Shown here piece by piece: positions 14,879-52,098 of a DNA stretch of 52,098 nt. This DNA comes from Bacteroidales bacterium. Its GTDB lineage: Bacteria > Bacteroidota > Bacteroidia > Bacteroidales > P3. Positions within the stretch are counted from its first letter, which is position 1. Every line of letters starts with the position of its first letter. The notes under the pieces are model-generated. The model had not been told where the DNA came from. It made no database searches and saw only the letters and a program-made list of their open reading frames with translations. The DNA lies in the NCBI GenBank assembly GCA_017962615.1, contig JAGCUZ010000005.1, positions 1-52,098 on the forward strand. The letters run 5' to 3'. The position numbers and the translations under genes are program-made.

Positions 14879-15289
14879 ATGACTCAGCTCGTAATACATA
14901 AGCGTCTTGGCAAACTCATGAACCGCATGCCCCACAGGCTGTTCATCAACGGCACTCCCGTCGCCGTGATGACGGCATCGTCGCTGGCGGTGTCGCTGCC
15001 TGCCGGGCGCTACAGCGTCACCGTCCAGAGCAGCCTGCCGTGGTTCTACTCCACCGCCGCGGTCGAAGTGACCGACTTGCTTCCCGCCGTCCTTGAAATA
15101 GGCAACCGCGAGAAATGGTGGGAGATACTCTTCGCCGCCGACCTCGTCTTCTGGGTCGTCAAGCGGTTCATCACCCTCGCGGCGCCGTGGACGTGGATAT
15201 ACGAGGTGGTCACCAACGGCTATTTCGTTATATGGCTCATCTACGAGTGGCGCATCCGCAAGCATTATTTCACCATGAACATAGTATAA
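14879..15289 (+). CDS. unknown small membrane-associated protein
   Basis: A 136-residue protein. The N-terminal half looks like a small beta domain (RLFINGTPVAVMTASSLAVS, then LPAGRYSVTVQSSLPWFYST). The C-terminal half has one or two hydrophobic segments (ILFAADLVFWVVKRFITLAA and a NGYFVIWLIYEW stretch). It lies 16 bases after the DMT permease gene and 5 before the DUF456 gene, inside one dense plus-strand cluster. I recognise no family. Confidence 0.65.
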   Translation: MTQLVIHKRLGKLMNRMPHRLFINGTPVAVMTASSLAVSLPAGRYSVTVQSSLPWFYSTAAVEVTDLLPAVLEIGNREKWWEILFAADLVFWVVKRFITLAAPWTWIYEVVTNGYFVIWLIYEWRIRKHYFTMNIV

Positions 15290-15294
15290 AAACA

Positions 15295-15801
15295 ATGGCA
15301 ACAACACTCAACATAATCCTTATCGTCTTTGCCGTCGTATGCCTGTTGGCAGGCTTGGCCGGCGCAGTTATTCCAGGACTTCCCGGACCTCCTTTGAGCT
15401 GGGTGGGACTCATGCTGCTGTCGTGCAGCGATGCGGCGCAGTGCTCCACCGGCTGCCTCGTCACCATGGCCGTGGCGGCGGTGGTCATCACCGTGCTCGA
15501 CTACGTCATACCCTCCATCAGCACCAAGCGCTTCGGAGGCGGCAAGGCCTCGGTGTGGGGCTGCAACATAGGCCTCGTTGTGGCCATCCTCGGCCTCCCC
15601 TTCGGTCCGCAGGGCATCATCGGACTCATCTTCTGGCCTTTTGTCGGAGCCTTCGTGGGCGAACTGATTGACAAGAAACCCGCCGACGAGGCCCTCCGTG
15701 CCGCCTTCGGCTCAGTGCTCGGCTTCCTGTCGGGCACCCTCGTCAAGGTGGTTTACGCCATCATCGCCGTCATCATCGCCATCAAGGAAGTAATCTCATA
15801 A
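15295..15801 (+). CDS. DUF456 family membrane protein
   Basis: A 168-residue protein, almost entirely hydrophobic, of the DUF456 family. The family pattern AGLAGAVIPGLPGPPLSWVG is present, with a central cytoplasmic loop DYVIPSISTKRFGGGKASVW and a glycine-rich second half ending GFLSGTLVKVVYAIIAVIIA. No function is known for the family. The start is the ATG at 15295, five bases after the previous stop; an upstream extension in the same frame is a shadow of the preceding gene. Confidence 0.88.
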   Translation: MATTLNIILIVFAVVCLLAGLAGAVIPGLPGPPLSWVGLMLLSCSDAAQCSTGCLVTMAVAAVVITVLDYVIPSISTKRFGGGKASVWGCNIGLVVAILGLPFGPQGIIGLIFWPFVGAFVGELIDKKPADEALRAAFGSVLGFLSGTLVKVVYAIIAVIIAIKEVIS

Positions 15802-22862: not shown

Positions 22863-23759
22863 TTGGACAACAAGTCGCTATACAAAGATCTGTGCCAAAG
22901 CGAAGGCAGCCGCATACCACTGTTTCAGCAGCATTGGTGGATGGAGGCTGTGTGCGAAGGCAAACGGTGGGATGTGCTTCTCGACAGGGATGCCGACGGC
23001 ACCGTCCGAGCGGCTCTGCCCTATCTTATCGGCCGTAAGATGGGGCTGCGCTATGTGATAATGCCGCAGCTTACGCAGTTCGGCGGCCCATGGCTGCGCA
23101 GCGGCTCTATGGAGGAGGAGATGTTGGCAGCCAAGCGGCTCATCGCTCAGCTTAAGAGGCTGCGCCTTACCTATTACCAGCAAAACTTCGCGCCTGAGGT
23201 GACCAACTGGCTGCCTTTCTACTGGGCGGGCTACCGGCAAACCACCCGCTACACCTACCGCCTCAGCGACATATCCAATACCCAGGAGGTATTCAACCGT
23301 TTCGACCCTTCGCGCCGCCAGCGCCAGATACAAAAGCTCGAAGGCAAGCTGCGAGAGGTGGAGATGTCGGCAAGCGAGTTTGCCGACTTCCATATTTCCT
23401 ATTGGGCCTCGAGAGGCCGCAAAGACTTGCTTTCGCGCAGTTTTATGCTGCGGGTTACGCAAACCGCCTTGGACCGCGGGCAGGGACTGCTCATGGCCTT
23501 GGCCGACGAGGACGGGGTTGTTCAGGGCGCACGCTTCGTGGTGTTCGACGACCGATGCGCCTATTCTCTGCTGTCGGCCCTACGGCCCGGCCATCCCAAC
23601 GGCACCTCGGCAATGCTTTTCTGGCAGATTATATGCCGCCTGTCGGGACGCACCAAGGCTTTCGACTTCGAGGGCAGCATGGACCCCGGCATAGAGCAGT
23701 CCTACCGCCTCTACGGCGCCACCCAGGTTCCCTACTTCCGTATCACCAAACTGCTATGA
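22863..23759 (+). CDS. FemAB/GNAT-like acyltransferase family protein
   Basis: A 298-residue protein resembling the GNAT-fold peptidyl- or acyl-transferases of the FemAB/BioF2-like group. PLFQQHWWMEAVCEGKRWDV is the typical opening, followed by LPYLIGRKMGLRYVIMPQLT, FDPSRRQRQIQKLEG and the C-terminal GNAT core around LPGHPNGTSAM-like sequence (actual: LRPGHPNGTSAMLFWQII) and FDFEGSMDPGIEQSYRLYGA. The start is a TTG at 22863; the N-terminal residues up to PLFQQ match the family, which supports it. The stop overlaps the rlmH ATG (ATGA), so the two genes are coupled. The acceptor is unknown. Confidence 0.72.
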   Translation: MDNKSLYKDLCQSEGSRIPLFQQHWWMEAVCEGKRWDVLLDRDADGTVRAALPYLIGRKMGLRYVIMPQLTQFGGPWLRSGSMEEEMLAAKRLIAQLKRLRLTYYQQNFAPEVTNWLPFYWAGYRQTTRYTYRLSDISNTQEVFNRFDPSRRQRQIQKLEGKLREVEMSASEFADFHISYWASRGRKDLLSRSFMLRVTQTALDRGQGLLMALADEDGVVQGARFVVFDDRCAYSLLSALRPGHPNGTSAMLFWQIICRLSGRTKAFDFEGSMDPGIEQSYRLYGATQVPYFRITKLL

Positions 23760-24229
23760 ATATTAAACTTATCGTTGTAGGAAAGACTGACGAGGAATAC
23801 CTCCGCGAAGGCATCGCAAAATACGAAGCCCGCCTTTCGCACTACGCTGGCTTCAAGATAGAGGAGATACCCGCCCTGCGTGACCAGCGGAGGGCATCGC
23901 CCGCCACGGTGCGCGAACGCGAGGCGGCGCTTATCCTGAAGCGTATCGAGGGCATTGACCGCGTGGTGCTACTCGACGAGCACGGCAAGGAGCACACAAG
24001 CGTCGGCTTCGCCGAATACCTTCAGCGGCAGATGAACAGCGGCCTGCGCTCGCTGGCTTTCGTGGTGGGCGGTGCCTACGGCTTTGCGCCCGAAGTGTAC
24101 GCCGCCGCCAACGACAAAATATCCCTCTCGCAGATGACTTTCAACCACCAGATGGTGCGGCTTTTCTTTGCCGAACAGCTGTACCGCGCCTTCACCATCC
24201 TTAACCACGAGCCATATCACAATGAGTAG
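23756..24229 (+). CDS. rlmH: 23S rRNA pseudouridine-1915 N3-methyltransferase
   Basis: A 157-residue SPOUT methyltransferase. MNIKLIVVGKTDEEYLREGI is the family start, VVLLDEHGKEHTSVGFAEYL the middle, and the knotted SAM-binding part FVVGGAYGFAPEVYAAANDK, then SQMTFNHQMVRLFFAEQLYR, closes it. RlmH methylates pseudouridine in helix 69 of 23S rRNA. Its ATG lies within the stop of the preceding gene. Confidence 0.96.
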   Translation: MNIKLIVVGKTDEEYLREGIAKYEARLSHYAGFKIEEIPALRDQRRASPATVREREAALILKRIEGIDRVVLLDEHGKEHTSVGFAEYLQRQMNSGLRSLAFVVGGAYGFAPEVYAAANDKISLSQMTFNHQMVRLFFAEQLYRAFTILNHEPYHNE

Positions 24230-25481: not shown

Positions 25482-26483
25482 ATGATAGACTGCAAGGACA
25501 AGACAATACTGATAGTTGGCGACGTGATGATCGACGCCTACCTGTGCGGCGCCGTCTCGCGCCTGTCGCCCGAGGCACCAGTGCCCATCGTATCCATAGA
25601 ACGCCGCGAACAGAGGCTTGGAGGTGCCGCCAACGTAGCCCTCAACGTCAGTGCCATGGGTGCCAAGCCGTTGCTCTACTCTGTGATGGGCAACGACGAC
25701 AATGCACGGCTTTTCATGCAGCTGATGTACGACAACAACCTCGACCGCCGTGGCATCCTTACGTCGGAGAGCCGCCGCACCACCGTGAAGTCGCGCGTGA
25801 TAGGCAACAACATGCACATCGTGCGCATCGACGACGAAGACACCACGCCGCTAAGTGCCGTCGACGAGCGTCAGCTCGTGGAACGTATCGCAGCAGCAAT
25901 AAAGCATACGCATATCGACGCCATAATCTTCCAGGACTACGACAAAGGCAACATCACGTCGACGGTCATAGATGAGACCATAGCCCTTGCCAAGCGTCAC
26001 GGCATCATCACCGCCGTCGACCCCAAGCATCGGCAGTTCAAACTGTTCCACGACGTCACCCTCTTCAAGCCCAACCTCAAAGAACTGCGTGAAGGCTTGA
26101 ACATCGAAATCGACGACTCGTGCGACGATCAGTCGCTCCGCAATGCCCTCGACCGCGCCTCGCTCACGCTGCACGAGAGCCAGGGCGTCGAGGTGGTACT
26201 GGTGACGCTGTCAAGCCGCGGAATATATGCCTGCGACTTCCGGCAGGATGCTCCGCAGTCAGTGCTGCTGCCCGCCGAGCACAGGGCCGTGGCCGACGTG
26301 TCGGGAGCTGGCGACACCGTGATAAGCGTCGCCACGCTGTGCCTCACGCTCGGCATGTCGCTGGCAGACATGGTAGCCTACTCCAACAAGGCCGGCGGCA
26401 TAGTGTGCGAGCAGGTGGGCGTAGTGCCTATCGACAAAGCACGATTGGAATCGTGTATAACGGCAAACACTAAAGAATCTTGA
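25482..26483 (+). CDS. rfaE1: D-glycero-beta-D-manno-heptose-7-phosphate kinase
   Basis: A 333-residue PfkB-family kinase resembling the kinase half of HldE (RfaE1). ILIVGDVMIDAYLCGAVSRL is the opening, RLGGAANVALNVSAMGAKP the substrate-binding glycine motif, AVDPKHRQFKLFHDVTLFKP the middle block, and VADVSGAGDTVISVATLCL the ATP/catalytic motif with the GAGD aspartate. No nucleotidyltransferase domain follows, so the separate (RfaE1) form applies. It feeds ADP-heptose synthesis for lipopolysaccharide. It overlaps the TTG start of the PorT-like gene by four bases. Confidence 0.9.
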   Translation: MIDCKDKTILIVGDVMIDAYLCGAVSRLSPEAPVPIVSIERREQRLGGAANVALNVSAMGAKPLLYSVMGNDDNARLFMQLMYDNNLDRRGILTSESRRTTVKSRVIGNNMHIVRIDDEDTTPLSAVDERQLVERIAAAIKHTHIDAIIFQDYDKGNITSTVIDETIALAKRHGIITAVDPKHRQFKLFHDVTLFKPNLKELREGLNIEIDDSCDDQSLRNALDRASLTLHESQGVEVVLVTLSSRGIYACDFRQDAPQSVLLPAEHRAVADVSGAGDTVISVATLCLTLGMSLADMVAYSNKAGGIVCEQVGVVPIDKARLESCITANTKES

Positions 26484-27204: not shown

Positions 27205-28779
27205 ATGCCGCACACCGTAGAGATAGACATCACTCCCGAGCAGTACAGCGACCCGCGGTCGGTGCTTGCCGCCGTAGCACGCAAAGCGCGTCTGTCGACT
27301 GAGCAGATTGCCCGTCTGCAGCCCCTGCGCCGCAGCCTCGACGCCCGGCGCGGCGTGATGTATCACCTCACGGTGGATGTATACCTGAAAGGGGAGCCCT
27401 ACAGCGAGCCGGACTATCGTTCGGAGTACTGCGACTGCCACAATGCCCCGCCGCTTGTAATAATAGGTGCCGGTCCGGCAGGTCTCTTCGCCGCGCTGCG
27501 TGCGCTGGAGGCCGGGCTGCGACCGATTATATTGGAGCAGGGCAAGCCTGTTGAGACCCGCAAGGCCGACATAGCGGCGGCGGCACGCCTCGGCATAGTC
27601 AATCCCGCAAGCAACTGGTGCTTCGGCGAGGGCGGCGCTGGAACCTACAGCGACGGCAAGCTCTACACCCGGGCCACCAAGCGGGGCGACGTAGGCTACG
27701 TGCTGCGCAAACTCGTCGAGCACGGAGCCGACCCCGACATCCTTGTCGACACACACGCACATATAGGCACCGACCGCCTCGGCGGCATAATAAAGAACAT
27801 ACGCCAGACGGTGCTCGACCACGGCGGCGAATATCATTTCGGCACCCGTGTAACCAACTTCGTCGTGAGCGACAGTCAGCCGACAACAGTGCTTGGCGCC
27901 AAGGATAGCGACGGCAACGTCTACGAAGGCGTCGGCGTGGTACTTGCCACCGGGCATTCTTCACGCGATATATATGAACTCTTCGCCCTGCGCGGATGGC
28001 TGCTCGAGGCCAAGCCGTTTGCCATAGGGGTGCGCGTCGAGCACTCGCAGCAGCTCATCGACGAAATACAGTACCATCTGCGCGGTGCACAAGGCGAGAG
28101 GCTGCGCAAGCTTCTCCCGCCGGCCTCCTACGCCCTCAAGGCGCAAGTTGACGGCCACGGCGTATTCTCCTTCTGCATGTGCCCCGGCGGAGTGATTGTA
28201 CCTGCCGCCACGGCCGACAGGCAGCAGGTGGTCAACGGCATGAGCGATTCGCACCGCAGCTCGGCCTTTGCCAACAGCGGCATCGCCGTGACGGTGAGTG
28301 CCGAGGATGTTCCCGAGTATGCCAGCCACGGACCGCTCGCCCTACTGCGCTTCCAGCAGGAGGTGGAGCGAAGCACCTTCGAGGCGGCGGGGTGCCGCAT
28401 CAACGCCCCTTCGCAGCGGCTTGCCGACTTCTGCGCGTCGCGCCCAAGCAGCAGCCTTAACAAGAGCAACTATCTGGGCTCGTGCGTCAGCGTGCCTGTG
28501 CACGAGTTGCTGCCGCCATTTGTCGTGAAATGCCTTCAACAGGGCTTCCGACTGTTCGACCGCAAGATGCACGGATTCCTCACCTCCGAGGCCTCGATAC
28601 TCGCCGTTGAGAGCCGCACGTCGTCGCCGGTGCGCATACCTCGCGACGCGAGCCTACAGCACCCGCAGCTGCGCAACCTCTACCCTTGCGGCGAAGGGGC
28701 TGGTTACGCCGGCGGCATAGTGTCGAGCGCCATCGACGGAGTCAACGCCGTAGAAGCGATTTATAGTTCTAAGTTATGA
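27205..28779 (+). CDS. FAD-dependent dehydrogenase of the COG2509 type
   Basis: A 524-residue flavoprotein. After a roughly 70-residue N-terminal domain comes the dinucleotide fold LVIIGAGPAGLFAALRALEA with GxGxxG and the acidic end IILEQGKPVETRKAD. Then follow NWCFGEGGAGTYSDGKLYTR, VLATGHSSRDIYELF and FCMCPGGVIVPAATADRQQV. It ends with CGEGAGYAGGIVSSAIDGV, the second FAD contact. The physiological substrate of the family is unknown. The last codons (YSSKL) and the TGA are formed by an intergenic repeat (copy 4). I chose the ATG at 27205, 11 bases after the PorT-like stop. Confidence 0.88.
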   Translation: MPHTVEIDITPEQYSDPRSVLAAVARKARLSTEQIARLQPLRRSLDARRGVMYHLTVDVYLKGEPYSEPDYRSEYCDCHNAPPLVIIGAGPAGLFAALRALEAGLRPIILEQGKPVETRKADIAAAARLGIVNPASNWCFGEGGAGTYSDGKLYTRATKRGDVGYVLRKLVEHGADPDILVDTHAHIGTDRLGGIIKNIRQTVLDHGGEYHFGTRVTNFVVSDSQPTTVLGAKDSDGNVYEGVGVVLATGHSSRDIYELFALRGWLLEAKPFAIGVRVEHSQQLIDEIQYHLRGAQGERLRKLLPPASYALKAQVDGHGVFSFCMCPGGVIVPAATADRQQVVNGMSDSHRSSAFANSGIAVTVSAEDVPEYASHGPLALLRFQQEVERSTFEAAGCRINAPSQRLADFCASRPSSSLNKSNYLGSCVSVPVHELLPPFVVKCLQQGFRLFDRKMHGFLTSEASILAVESRTSSPVRIPRDASLQHPQLRNLYPCGEGAGYAGGIVSSAIDGVNAVEAIYSSKL

Positions 28780-28862
28780 GTTTTAAGTTATAAGTGGCTG
28801 ACGCACCATCTATCGCATCTATCCTATCTATCCCCTCTATCGTATCTATAACAATCCATCTA
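28764..28862 (+). repeat. dispersed intergenic repeat, copy 4, supplies a stop codon
   Basis: tagttctaagttatgagttt, taagttataagtggctgacgc, then several tctatc(g/c)(c/t)atct units. The first 16 bases overlap the 3' end of the FAD dehydrogenase gene (stop TGA at 28777-28779), so this copy became part of the coding sequence. Confidence 0.75.
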
Positions 28863-44966: not shown

Positions 44967-45526
44967 ATTTCATCCATTATCTTTGTAACTAGTTCTGCCA
45001 AGGTATATTCATTATCTTGGCGAGCTTTCCATTCGTTGTATTCAGCCTCTTTCTTCTTTATGGCATGGGCATAATCACCATAAAAAGCTGTCCACAGTAA
45101 TGTGTATCCAATACGTACTTCAAGAATAACATAATAGTTATCTCCATTATCAGTCTCAAGCCAAATGCAAATGCGGTGCTTCCGGCCACAGTTACTGCGT
45201 ATTTGTTCCCAAAAACGAAGGCCAAGGATTTGTGTTTCAGTAATTGTAGGACGCGCCCAAGGAATTCGTTCGCAGCGGCGAAGGTCAGGTATCCGTTCGG
45301 TTTCAACATCTCCTTTGTGTGTCATATGATAAAACGTGTATGCTCTATCTTGCACTGAAGGGTGATACTTCAATCGCAACTCGAAATCACCTAATCGAAC
45401 TTTATGGGCGATAAAATCATTGTAGAACACGCCATACACAACATCAATATATGCCGCATAATTACCGCCATAGTCATTTAAGCAAATAATTGGAGGCAAC
45501 CTATCAATTGGCACCGACATGGCCAT
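44939..45526 (-). CDS. partner protein of the DUF3800 gene, unknown
   Basis: A 195-residue protein, soluble, with no recognised domain. Stretches include IDRLPPIICLNDYGGNYAAY, VYGVFYNDFIAHKVRLGDFE, RIPWARPTITETQILGLRFW and a charged C-terminal helix (IKKKEAEYNEWKARQDNEY). It starts 23 bases inside the end of the DUF3800 gene (ATG ending at 45526), so the two are translationally coupled. The codon and base composition is AT-rich. The repeated pairing of such genes with DUF3800 is my recollection, not something tested here. Confidence 0.7.
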   Translation of the reverse strand: MAMSVPIDRLPPIICLNDYGGNYAAYIDVVYGVFYNDFIAHKVRLGDFELRLKYHPSVQDRAYTFYHMTHKGDVETERIPDLRRCERIPWARPTITETQILGLRFWEQIRSNCGRKHRICIWLETDNGDNYYVILEVRIGYTLLWTAFYGDYAHAIKKKEAEYNEWKARQDNEYTLAELVTKIMDEMKKQESPTD

Positions 45527-46223
45527 AACCTCCTTTCCATATGAAGATGTTTACTTTGTCCTCTTTATAGAGAGTAGAGCGTATAAGAGAGTACCCTGAC
45601 TTTTGCATTAGGCGTTCAATAATTTGAATTTTCGCTTTATTGTCATCGAGACCTCGATTGCGATAGCAAACAGCCCCAATCATGAAATCGGCAAGTTCAA
45701 TCAATTCAACCTCGTGAGAACGTACTTGCTGTATACGCTTTATCATGTGCTTGTCATAATCATATACATTGTTACAGAGATATTCCTTTAATTTTTCTAC
45801 TTTATCAACACCTTGCGTGTCCTTGATGTCAATATATATATTATAAAATTCTTGTGGCGTTAGAATTGTTTTGAGCATGTCAAAATACATTTTATAATAG
45901 AACTCGTCATGTGTTTGTCTATATTCTGCGTGACGCAGATTTTGTTTGTTTTGTACAACCAATGCCCTGAAGTGTATGTCTGACATATCGAAAAAATAGT
46001 CCAGCACATCAATATAATATGACAACTTTGAATTTGAGACGGCATTCCATTTAAGTTCACATGTTGGCTTTAGACCATTGCGGACTTTTATTTCTCGCAA
46101 ACGAGTAAAAATTTCATCTTTCTTTTCAATGGGACACCATACGCATCCCAATACCATTACATTACTATTGTCGTGTTCAAGATGACAACTCTCGTCACAA
46201 TATATGTTATAAGTTCTACCCAT
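45504..46223 (-). CDS. DUF3800 family protein
   Basis: A 239-residue protein of the DUF3800 family. The N-terminal motif YNIYCDESCHLEHDNSNVMV carries the D-E-S triplet that defines the family. A second conserved block is LKPTCELKWNAVSNSKLSYY (E-x-K-W). A third acidic site is IYIDIKDTQGVDKVEKL, and HEVELIELADFMIGAVCYRN is the closing block with an aspartate. Conserved acidic residues in that order suggest an RNase H-like nuclease fold, which is inference. It has a -7 box at 46265-46272 and lies in an AT-rich accessory block. Confidence 0.85.
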   Translation of the reverse strand: MGRTYNIYCDESCHLEHDNSNVMVLGCVWCPIEKKDEIFTRLREIKVRNGLKPTCELKWNAVSNSKLSYYIDVLDYFFDMSDIHFRALVVQNKQNLRHAEYRQTHDEFYYKMYFDMLKTILTPQEFYNIYIDIKDTQGVDKVEKLKEYLCNNVYDYDKHMIKRIQQVRSHEVELIELADFMIGAVCYRNRGLDDNKAKIQIIERLMQKSGYSLIRSTLYKEDKVNIFIWKGGYGHVGAN

Positions 46224-47859: not shown

Positions 47860-48651
47860 TTAATTTGCGTTTCTTTCCAATGAGTCCCATAGGAAATTCA
47901 CTAGAGTTATACTACTGCCAATCGCTAACTTTGCATGCCTTTCTTGTAATCCTTTGTAGGATGCACTCTTCCCATGTCCACTCCCATATGAATTACGTAA
48001 GGTGGCTATATTAGTTGCAATGGCTCTCAAATTTCCTAGGAGAGCTTTCATCGATTTGGCTTCCGGAATATCTTCTGGAATATCATTCGGCGTAATCTTC
48101 AGTTTTTTTACTGTAGTGTCTACAAGTTTTGTAATATCCCAGTTTTTGTCGTATTCCTCATCGAATCGTTCTAAGATTGTTTTGCAACAACTTTCAATTA
48201 ATTCTTTAGCCTTTCCAATAGCCTCTGTTGGATTGTCAGTCTGCATCTGCAACATTAAATCCAACTGTTTCGCAATATGTTCGCTAGAAAATGCTTCTTT
48301 AAGGTTATCAGTAGGTATTTGTATTCCATTTAATAATGGACGAACCCTATCAATAATTCGTTTGCAATTATCGTGTTGGATTTGATATTCTCTTTGTTCT
48401 CGAGGATATACATTCAACTCATAATAATCAAATAAGTCAGTCAAGAGTTTTGCTGAATCAGAAGCATTGGCATCGTGCAGAAACCTTGTTAACGACTGGC
48501 CCTTGGACAATCCATATTTTTCACATAACGCAACACCAACGCTATCCATAGTGAAGGCATTGAAATCGGCAGTAGAAAAATCTAACACATAGCCACCCCG
48601 GTTGAACAACTTTAGAAATGCTCCCTTCTCGATATTTGTTAAATAGTCCAT
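47860..48651 (-). CDS. abortive-infection family protein (Abi C-terminal domain)
   Basis: A 263-residue protein starting MDYLTNIEKGAFLKLFNRGG. The C-terminal domain shows the pattern of the Abi_C family (PF14355): NLRAIATNIATLRNSYGSGH, GKSASYKGLQERHAKLAIGS and a closing TLVNFLWDSLE. The N-terminal 130 residues have no recognised domain. Family members occur in phage-exclusion systems, but the mechanism of this type is not established. I use the ATG ending at 48651; the frame runs on upstream into unrelated sequence. It is AT-rich and flanked by two related gene-end fragments, which suggests insertion as a cassette. Confidence 0.78.
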   Translation of the reverse strand: MDYLTNIEKGAFLKLFNRGGYVLDFSTADFNAFTMDSVGVALCEKYGLSKGQSLTRFLHDANASDSAKLLTDLFDYYELNVYPREQREYQIQHDNCKRIIDRVRPLLNGIQIPTDNLKEAFSSEHIAKQLDLMLQMQTDNPTEAIGKAKELIESCCKTILERFDEEYDKNWDITKLVDTTVKKLKITPNDIPEDIPEAKSMKALLGNLRAIATNIATLRNSYGSGHGKSASYKGLQERHAKLAIGSSITLVNFLWDSLERNAN

Positions 48652-48708
48652 ACTTAAATAGAAGCTGGGTAGCCCTCTCGGGCTGCCCAGCTTGGGGTGG
48701 AGAATATT

Positions 48709-48787
48709 ACATCTCCGAGAGTTTCTTGTAGCCCTCGTAGCGCAGTTTGGCATTGCGCTCGGTGGCGACGAAGAGTTCTTCGGCCTC
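48709..48787 (-). pseudogene. C-terminal fragment of an unidentified gene, copy 1
   Basis: Minus-strand codons read AEELFVATERNAKLRYEGYK and KLSEM before a TAA. This looks like a genuine helical protein end. Upstream the frame degenerates into low-quality sequence, so the gene is truncated. A shorter, mutated copy of the same end is at 47790-47848. I do not recognise the parent protein. Confidence 0.5.
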
Positions 48788-49075
48788 CTGGGGGCACCCC
48801 GAAGGGGAACCGAACACCTTATTATCAAAATTAAATGCAGTGAGGAAGGTCTTTTCTCTACCTTCTCCCCAGGAGCATTCTTCGGCGCCGCAGTGAGGGT
48901 GGGCAAACTGCGCGTAGGAACCAGAAAAAGCTTTCCGCTTTCTATCCTCGACATGCGGGGTGCACCGACGGCTGTGCCGACGGTTTAGTCCCGCATCGGC
49001 GACAGCAGAGGACGGCCCTAACGGGTATCCTTTCTTTTGCCATTCATTATAAATCAATATTCCCATTCCTATTTG

Positions 49076-49165
49076 ATAACGCCATTTTTATAAATCCAAT
49101 GTTCCGCTTTTATAACGCCATTTTTCAATACCAGATCATAAATCCTTGTTAATAACGCCATTTTT
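49076..49165. repeat. three direct repeats ataacgccattttt
   Basis: The 14-base word occurs exactly at 49076-49089, 49112-49125 and 49152-49165, spaced 36 and 40 bases start to start. It lies about 120 bases before the split membrane-protein gene. The spacers are not related to one another. It could be an operator/iteron-like site; three copies with variable spacing do not make a CRISPR array. Confidence 0.7.
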
Positions 49166-49791
49166 GATTAAATATTGCCCGTGGGGCTTCATTATTTTAC
49201 GGTGAATGGGGCTGTTTGCACACAATATATTTTGATTCTTTACGTTATGATAATATGATAATTAGAAAGATGATAGTCTGCATAATAATTGACAAGTATG
49301 GTATTGCTAAACTTTTTTGACAGAATAGTAAAAGATTATTCAGATATTATAGCTGCATTTTCAATTCCTATGGTAATTGCAATACTTGCATTTGCACTAC
49401 CATTGTTGCTTCAAACAGCAGCAAGAGTGGATGATAAATATGATTCCACTCTTCTTATCAAAGTATTCAGAAGAGACTTGATTTGCAAATGGTTTCTCAT
49501 TAGCTTATTGGCCTCATTAATATCTTGCTTATTTTGGATTTTACAATTGCCCAGATGTGTTGATTGGGGTGATTTGATAAATATTGTGATTGATAATTCA
49601 TCATTGATTCTACTAGTGTTATCTACAATTGTACTTGTTGTTTTTTCTGTTCTTTCAGTGTGGCTTACCTATGTGTATTATCTGCCAGAGAAATTACTTG
49701 CAAGATTAGAGAAACAATATAATACAGCAAAAAATGAGCAAGATAAACAAACATTCTTTTATGCAATATCTTCTATACTTTTATTTTCTAT

Positions 49792-49798
49792 AAAAAAG
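49792..49798 (+). promoter_or_regulatory. slippery heptamer A_AAA_AAG
   Basis: In the frame of part 1 the codons are ATA AAA AAG, so the heptamer is in the exact register used for -1 frameshifting in bacterial dnaX and IS elements. A -1 shift leads directly into the open frame of part 2. No strong downstream hairpin was identified by eye. Confidence 0.5.
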
Positions 49799-50313
49799 AA
49801 GGTGAACCATTGGCACGAGAACTACAAGAATTCTATGCGCATGAGTTTATCAACTATAGGTCAAACAGATCAAATACGGTCAAAGAATACCCTGACTATT
49901 TTTATGACATAATGTTTGATGCAAATGAATGTTTATGCCAACGTGAAAGAAAAAGTATTTCTTGGTATAATGGTTCCTTTTACGATTACTTTATTGACGA
50001 GTATCAACAAACAACCATAAGTGAGAAAACTTATACATTCATTTGGAAATGTATCAGGCAGTCTCTTTTCTATGAAAAGGATGAATTCGTTTTCTCTTAC
50101 TGGCGTAAAGCCTATCAATATTTTTCTCTGTGGCTTAATTCAATATACCCTGAGTATGATAAAGATTTCAAAATAATCAATCAGCAAACAATAGATAAAA
50201 GAGAGGAGGAGAGGTATAGATTCCTTGAATTTCACTATGCATTGGGGGGATTATTAATGAAGGAAAAGAAATACAATCTCCTTCAGCAACTCATGACGTG
50301 GACAAATCAAACG

Positions 50314-50321
50314 CCCCCCCC
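50314..50321 (+). repeat. homopolymer tract of eight C
   Basis: The longest C-run noted in the AT-rich block. With seven C the frame of part 2 would join part 3. This is a typical site for slipped-strand phase variation or for base-calling error. Confidence 0.7.
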
Positions 50322-51625
50322 AATACGTCCTTTTACCAGAAACGATGTCTGAAGTTATTACAATGTTTATGAGTATTTCGTCTCCAGACAAGGATTTTCT
50401 TCCAGTGTATTTTGAGCAGCGATACCCATTCCCAGATACACATGGAGTTTATGCGGAAGATATTATAAAAATGTGGATTAAGCGATATCTTGCAATCCTG
50501 TTTTTGCGCCAATACAAACTAAATAAATATTACATCTATTCTAATCCACTGGAAATGCCAAAACCGCCACTCAAGTTAGCAGAAAAAAGAAGGTGGAATG
50601 ATGAACTTGATATATTAAAAAGATACGTTCAAGATTATTTAAATGACAATAATGAGCCTCTACGAATAATTGGTTTAGAAGACCTCATATCTGAAGAATG
50701 GTATAGTAAGAATAATAAGACCGCCCCAATAGATTTAATTAATGGATTTAAACATGAGATAGAAGAGGATACGGAAAGAACAAAGCAAAATCAACCAATA
50801 GATTTAGAAAAAAAGAATGCTCTATTTAAGTGTATAAAAGAGACATTGTTGAATGCATATGATGAAACAAGTGCTTTTTTACGAAGGGGCAAGTCCTCTG
50901 CCAAAATGAAGTTGAGATTTATAGGGAAACATGGAATTTTGGACAAGGCTGCGTTTGCTGCTGATTCCGAGGTGTCGTACATTAATGAAGATACGATTAT
51001 TCCAGATACACTAGCCCAGGAATTCAAAGTGAACATGATGAATATCTTCTTGTTAATGGATAGAACTCAATATTCAATAAAAGAAATAAAACTTTTTGAG
51101 GCAGTAAAACACTTATCATTAACAGAAGGTGAATTTGTAATACTAAACATTGGCCTTAATCTTGAATACTATCGAGATTACATCAAAGTCGATGGTTTGC
51201 ATCAAGATGCAGAGAAATGGTATTATAATAAAATAGAAATAATAGAGGCTCCTTTCAATCCGAATTTGTCTCATTCAATTATTATTATTCGAAAGGAAGA
51301 CTTGCCTTTTATTACATATCAAGAATTAGATAAAACCATAATAGAAAAATATTCATTAGAAGAGTTAGACAACGACAAAAAAATATATGCGAGTATTATT
51401 GACTTAAATACTTCGAGTTTGGCCGAGGAGATTCAAAAAGAAACCAATATTGACGAAGTAAAAGAAAAAGTTTTAGTATGTGTAGATATTAATGTTGGAA
51501 TAGGTTGCAATGAAACAGCACGGTGTCTGCATTTAAAAGTATTTTCGCAATTTGATGATAAAGGCACTCCCAATACAATTGACCAGATTAAAAAACTATG
51601 GGACACCTCCTCCAATAAATAAGCT

Positions 51626-51653
51626 AAAGGCATCGCGTCATTGCGGTGCCTTT
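51626..51653 (+). terminator. terminator after the split gene
   Basis: aaaggcatcgc / gcggtgccttt arms (11 pairs with one G-U) and a 6-base loop, then tatttct. It starts four bases after the stop and may also serve the minus-strand gene at 51685. Confidence 0.75.
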
Positions 51654-51684: not shown

Positions 51685-52098
51685 CTATTTTTTGAGGCGG
51701 TGAATTAGTTTAATTAACGGGAAGAGGATGAGACCGAGGAGGAAAGAGATTAGGATGGGGTTGATGAGGGATTTGGGGGTGATGGGTTGGATGGGCGAAA
51801 TGGGAGATGCTGTTGTTGTTTCTTTGGTGGTGCTGGCGGTTTCGGATTGGGTGAGGTGGTGGGAGTGGTCGGCGGTGCGGGCGCGAGAGGTTATCTTCTC
51901 GCGGTCGCGGTTGGTGGTGAGTCGTGTGGTGTCGCCGGTCTCGTTGGTTTGGATGAGGATGGTGGTGGTTTCACGAATGGTGTCGTGGACGGTGAGGGTG
52001 ACGGTCTGGCGGAGGGTGTCAGTCGCGGCAATCGTGCTGGTCTGTTGCGTCACGGTCTTGCTGCTTCTGCAACTCACTAATGACAGGGCAAGTGTCGC
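51685..52098 (-). CDS. small lipoprotein with C-terminal membrane segment, 5' end outside window
   Basis: The frame is open through the right edge. The visible N-terminal residues ATLALSLVSCRSSKTVTQQT look like the end of a lipoprotein signal with lipobox LVSC, so the true start lies just outside. The middle is Thr-rich (TVTLTVHDTIRETTTILIQT) and polar. The C-terminus has a hydrophobic segment, INPILISFLLGLILFPLI, followed by KLIHRLKK. It resembles small lipoproteins that accompany amidase genes in Bacteroidales, which I cannot verify here. Confidence 0.55.
   Translation of the reverse strand, partial: ATLALSLVSCRSSKTVTQQTSTIAATDTLRQTVTLTVHDTIRETTTILIQTNETGDTTRLTTNRDREKITSRARTADHSHHLTQSETASTTKETTTASPISPIQPITPKSLINPILISFLLGLILFPLIKLIHRLKK

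Follow-up and report, generated by a model that had tools for sequence, protein, structure and literature searches.

Programmed −1 ribosomal frameshifting of the dnaX type uses the heptamer A_AAA_AAG, and phase-variable genes with poly-C tracts are found in Neisseria and Campylobacter. In membrane proteins of abortive infection that belong to the AbiC type, hydrophobic segments at the N-terminus precede a soluble part. The gene that we describe here lies in a 52,098-nucleotide stretch of Bacteroidales DNA that was analysed as a whole (the window). It has the heptamer and the register of dnaX, but, unlike in dnaX, the heptamer is not conserved as a shift site, the downstream structure looks weak and the nearest relative reads straight through. 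As in the poly-C genes, a tract of eight C lies inside a reading frame; unlike them, this gene has aligned relatives that lack the tract, carries another break elsewhere and is known here from one assembled sequence. The family to which it belongs shares with AbiC-type proteins (PF16872, putAbiC) the order of N-terminal hydrophobic segments and then a soluble part, and is linked to them by context through such a gene near the family member in genome G138, whereas it differs in matching neither PF16872 nor the PADLOC models and in having three helices and about 760 residues. According to PMC3711429, programmed frameshifting requires that the frame-change site be conserved; a lone frame change in a gene whose relatives are unbroken is ascribed there to sequencing error or indels. 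Like the frameshifted pseudogenes and lone indel genes classified in that source, the window gene lacks a conserved frame-change site and has unbroken relatives, but it still shows a low dN/dS, is broken twice and may reflect an error in the sequence.

The open reading frame list, together with an alignment to locus L002, showed that three forward-strand frames (49298-49912, 49810-50352 and 50345-51622) are consecutive parts of one gene. This bears out the original prediction of a single gene spread over three frames, since the pieces match residues 27-192, 185-379 and 360-798 of one 798-codon frame in L002, in consecutive order; the positions given there for the frames, the A6-G run and the C8 tract were likewise correct. 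Identity to L002 was 87-88% for ORF1 up to the break, 84-89% for ORF2 and 86-87% for ORF3. ORF1 (49298-49912) encodes the N-terminal part with three membrane helices, followed by about 37 out-of-frame residues before the TAA at 49910-49912; TTG 49289 is an alternative start, with ATG 49298 being better placed. The middle part is encoded by ORF2 (49810-50352), which starts at TTG 49810 or at the in-frame ATG 49912 and stops at TGA 50350-50352, and the C-terminal part of 425 amino acids by ORF3 (50345-51622), which starts at ATG 50345. The first change of frame lies at the A6-G run (49792-49798), where the heptamer A_AAA_AAG stands in the −1 register, and the second at the C8 tract (50314-50321), which covers the codons of a conserved Pro-Pro. 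Downstream, at 51626-51653 on the same strand, a terminator-like hairpin is followed by a T-rich tail and has a counterpart in L002 and L003; the region holds three terminator-like sites, against a mean of 1.3 in shuffles. The gene, which encodes a membrane-anchored protein, is in one piece in most of the relatives examined and broken at two places in this assembly.

A contig search (GTDB) with ORF3 returned the loci L002 (MAG RUG10805, genome G083) and L003 (MAG RUG13549, genome G096), matching at 87% over all 425 residues; each carries one 798-codon frame, and the two proteins are identical. Altogether, 16 relatives, 15 of them distinct, have an unbroken frame of about 690-800 codons. Their sequences were examined in G083, G096, G339, G138, G344, G132, G176, G213, G360, G347, G040 and G513, while G602, G672 and G700 are known from rows of the search table only and a 766-residue coding sequence on a Hymenobacter plasmid from its annotation. 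The original prediction had named homologues in which the parts are always separate proteins as the case that would speak against it; these 16 relatives have one unbroken frame. The window gene itself is not unbroken, nor are those of G658 (two overlapping frames), G305 (where similarity stops at a stop codon after 262 residues) and G425 (a stop after 143 residues, with fewer than 100 bases of contig remaining). The G545 copy is truncated at a contig end, and the weak partial matches in G449, G626 and G617 were dropped from the count together with a partial match to a phage record. The genus yielded matches in 4 of 120 genomes, the family in 7 of 190 and the order in 12 of 393, and the phylum sample, with an alignment as the query, in 8 of 395; there is overlap among these sets, and the genome of the window is counted in them. 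An alignment of 11 relatives contained 14 invariant columns. Among viral contigs, protein and alignment scans found no relative and a pattern scan found no copy, and a phage collection gave a single partial match, covering 23% of the query at 30.5% identity in an unannotated record.

Consistent with the membrane anchoring originally proposed, Kyte-Doolittle analysis predicted three N-terminal helices on the forward strand (49355-49411, 49493-49549 and 49604-49660). Three N-terminal hydrophobic peaks were also seen in 10 of the 11 aligned relatives; L002 has two peaks at the place of the third helix, and L007 an additional one at residues 373-391. The charges of the loops, read by eye, suggest that the C-terminal ~640 residues are probably cytosolic, with the N-terminus outside, which makes the earlier description of a "surface" protein doubtful. 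The window pieces gave no PADLOC match at E 1 (PADLOC-DB 2.0.0) and only two Pfam hits, both below the cut-off. For the 11 relatives, on which the NCBIfam search was run in place of the window pieces, no PADLOC family matched at 0.1, and the Pfam and NCBIfam hits were weak and confined to single members, the best being AmaP at 0.0049. The sole PDB match, to 7rdr ('Circular tendon repeat protein', E 1.5e-17), spans 41 residues, none of its stretches passes individually, and we took it to be spurious.

The original prediction placed the gene in an accessory block, next to an abortive-infection gene, and the neighbouring reverse-strand gene at 47860-48954 is indeed AbiJ-like (PF14355 Abi_C, 2.1e-26; PADLOC AbiJ, 1.8e-14). 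The first ~100 codons of this ORF, which overlap a repeated intergenic element, are probably not coding. That element (48661-48794) matches G083 at two places with about 95% identity, and the open frame within it extends the start of the AbiJ-like ORF. Also on the reverse strand are a gene for a DUF3800 protein, the PADLOC candidate PDC-M04A (45504-46223), and, cut by the contig end, a gene that is lipoprotein-like by eye (51685-52098) and belongs to a cassette whose L002 counterpart contains a phage-type amidase. We considered whether ours is a prophage gene and rejected this: the right cassette of L002 has the phage-type amidase, but G083 continues with genes that look chromosomal by eye. 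In G096, the gene is flanked by two facing cassettes of small genes that look related by eye (L003 826-4175 and 7346-10522); only one such cassette was seen beside it in G083.

Genes near the relatives encode an EcoRII-type restriction enzyme and a methyltransferase in G339, PDC-S11, an AbiP/AbiC-like protein and PDC-S14 in G138, PDC-S26 in G347 and an AAA_15 ATPase in G083. The Hymenobacter plasmid gene, by annotation only, is accompanied by RES, DUF4007 and cysteine desulfurase genes, all of which have links to defence. At six loci, partly picked by eye, restriction, abortive-infection or candidate defence genes were found nearby. Ten neighbours from five relative loci, chosen by eye as interesting-looking, were scanned, and eight of them had a hit to a PADLOC model at the E 0.01 level, one of these hits being weak; the single neighbour scanned from L113 (G344) had no PADLOC match at this threshold. 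Nine loci outside the scan (L114, L115 and L117-L123) have mostly housekeeping or unrelated neighbours by eye, and the left side of G096 and the flanks of G602, G672 and G700 likewise lay outside it. No partner gene recurred by eye across the loci, which suggests that the gene acts alone. A defence role is plausible from this company, and we think it somewhat probable, going by the neighbours, that intact members are membrane-tethered proteins of the abortive-infection type.

The window copy is unusually close to that of G083. Its pieces are 84-89% identical to the G083 gene, compared with a median of 54% and a best value of 87% among 64 gene pairs matched one-way between these genomes, and the flanks match as well, with 496 bp at 85% on the right and, on the left, 213 bp at 81% plus repeat pieces at ~95%. 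Since the identity is at the top of the range and the flanks agree, we infer a recent exchange between the lineages. Upstream of the gene, within 49076-49165 on the forward strand, lie three copies of the 14-base ATAACGCCATTTTT (starts 49076, 49112 and 49152), of which four copies are present in 800,000 bases of G083 and none in 640,965 other bases of the window's genome.

Elsewhere in the window, a second apparent split at 26480/26833 was rejected, the two frames being ordinary genes that other genomes arrange in a different order and orientation. Overlapping same-strand ORFs at 22863-24229 (ORFs 22863/23402) and 14879-15801 (14879/15115) might hide frame changes, and a short sequence at 28760-28800 recurs in contigs C33, C57 and C60 of the window's genome, as well as in several further genomes from the genus. 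In G083, C/G runs of 9 to 13 occur at L085:8667, L084:646, L084:15421 and L032:2595, two of the four in open frames of more than 400 codons, and are possible slippage sites.

Several explanations for the two breaks have to be weighed, beginning with those that would give the interrupted frame a function. Programmed −1 frameshifting, raised in the original prediction, would yield short and long products from the A_AAA_AAG heptamer, which lies in the correct register exactly where the frame first changes. Across the 11-row alignment, however, L002 shares this heptamer and its register yet is read straight through, the ten other relatives lack it, and no row changes frame there. The folding that the prediction proposed to look for after 49798 looked weak, with z = −1.71 over 72 nt (10 of 200 shuffles as stable), −0.39 when started 5 nt later (61 nt; 62 of 200) and 0.85 at the L002 counterpart; moreover, a shift at this site could not give the full protein, because the second break at the C8 tract also needs a frame change. 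Programmed frameshifting was therefore rejected on conservation and folding, and we give it scarcely any credence. Slipped-strand variation, in which the length of the C8 tract would change often and leave the gene polymorphic or switching ON and OFF in the population, is suggested by the presence of a repeat tract at the frame change. The tract is unusual within a gene of 32% G+C and is the sole C/G run of at least 8 in the window; 40 other stretches of the genome (640,965 bases, with 20 further stretches outside the count) contain two, neither in an open frame of at least 100 codons. Conserved Pro-Pro codons, encoded at this site in 9 of the 11 aligned rows, would be a natural seed for it. 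None of the 11 relatives has the tract, so it arose in the window's lineage, and its absence from related copies argues against a maintained switch. The break at the A run alone would in any case still hold the gene off, and the pattern scan of viral contigs for length variants found no copy at all, and we regard frequent slippage as improbable. At both break sites, the DNA alignment shows runs of different length and composition in the window and in L002/L003. The gene could also be truly split, with pieces that are translated in turn by stop-start coupling and work together. At the first junction, the proper-frame ATG 49912 overlaps the ORF1 stop (TAATG, 49910-49914), and at the second the proper-frame ATG 50345 lies five bases before TGA 50350. 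When breaks were simulated along L002, the first stop had an ATG no more than 10 nt away in 105 of 744 and 108 of 752 cases, or 14% per direction, so that such an ATG at both junctions would be expected by chance in about 2% of cases. In addition, a distant relative in G658 (L127 1023-3405) consists of two overlapping frames divided just past the membrane part, with 128 membrane-part and 669 soluble-part residues, a 14-nt overlap and an ATG 11 nt before the stop, just beyond the 10-nt limit. Against coupling, the ATG pattern was spotted post hoc, the residues from each break to the restart would be missing from the pieces, and the G658 split is unique to that genome among those compared, matches being confined to G658 itself among 92 genomes of its family and to G658 and the unbroken G700 among 128 of its order. 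Coupled translation is accordingly very unlikely. Only slightly more credible is the idea of a new Bacteroidota family of membrane-anchored solo-defence proteins in which a break just past the membrane part that leaves stop and start codons overlapping, or slippage at the young C8 tract, would be tolerated or used to turn a costly protein down.

Recent decay or sequence error, both listed with slippage among the alternatives of the original prediction, is likelier than any special decoding trick. Of these we favour the view that a horizontally mobile accessory gene, from an unnamed Bacteroidota family, was recently inactivated, with a probability of roughly 0.46. The frame is broken relative to 16 unbroken relatives, two of which are identical, and the background of frame changes is low. 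When 1,022 relative-gene queries (1.42 Mb) were compared with 1.01 Mb of the genome, about half of it, at identity of at least 30% and coverage of at least 60%, 215 queries matched over 191,035 bases and nine frame changes were reported; eight of these were the two breaks described here, each seen via four family members, and one lay elsewhere (L054), indicating no general indel problem in the genes of this genome. The reverse survey (178 matched genes, 187,437 bases) gave five reports, four in relatives and one at the window's own break, and in a smaller survey restricted to G083, with 79 matched genes, the two breaks were the only frame changes. Purifying selection has not been lost as in an old pseudogene: over the whole divergence from L002, dN/dS was 0.187, 0.158 and 0.124 for the successive pieces (dS 0.30-0.53), so any break must be recent, and selection appears to have acted on the gene for nearly all of that divergence. 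Decay would have to be very young, as no proper-frame stop and no missense excess have accumulated, and two indels with nothing else would equally fit an error in a draft of 71 contigs that is 67% complete. Such an error, with both run lengths wrong in the draft and the living gene intact, is a lesser but real possibility. Both breaks lie in or beside single-base runs, the rest of the gene looks intact in its open pieces and low dN/dS, and lone frame changes validated by homologues are, according to PMC3711429, expected to be sequencing errors rather than genuine indels. Runs of C/G of at least 7 are also scarce, numbering 5 in 640,965 bases here and 43 in the 800,000 bases counted in G083, a difference that could reflect shortened runs (run-length error) or a plain genome difference. 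Set against this are the single other frame change in ~191 kb of coding DNA and the presence of A/T runs of 8-10 (76 of at least 8 in 640,965 bases, against 134 in 800,000 bases of G083); for a single 2.3-kb gene to collect two errors would take a local accident, though a possible one with ~2 Mb in play.

If the favoured reading of recent inactivation is right, the copy would have been exchanged recently with a G083-like lineage, and indels at the A run and the C tract would have broken the gene after or around that exchange, the second break being cost-free once the first existed. Intact members, with three N-terminal helices and ~640 residues that are probably cytosolic, would then most likely serve as solo, membrane-tethered phage defence.

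Taken together, decay or error most likely accounts for the split, from which there is little to learn. The useful by-product is a scattered, rare and unnamed family that goes unrecognised by Pfam, NCBIfam and PADLOC, and whose intact relatives allow a direct test.
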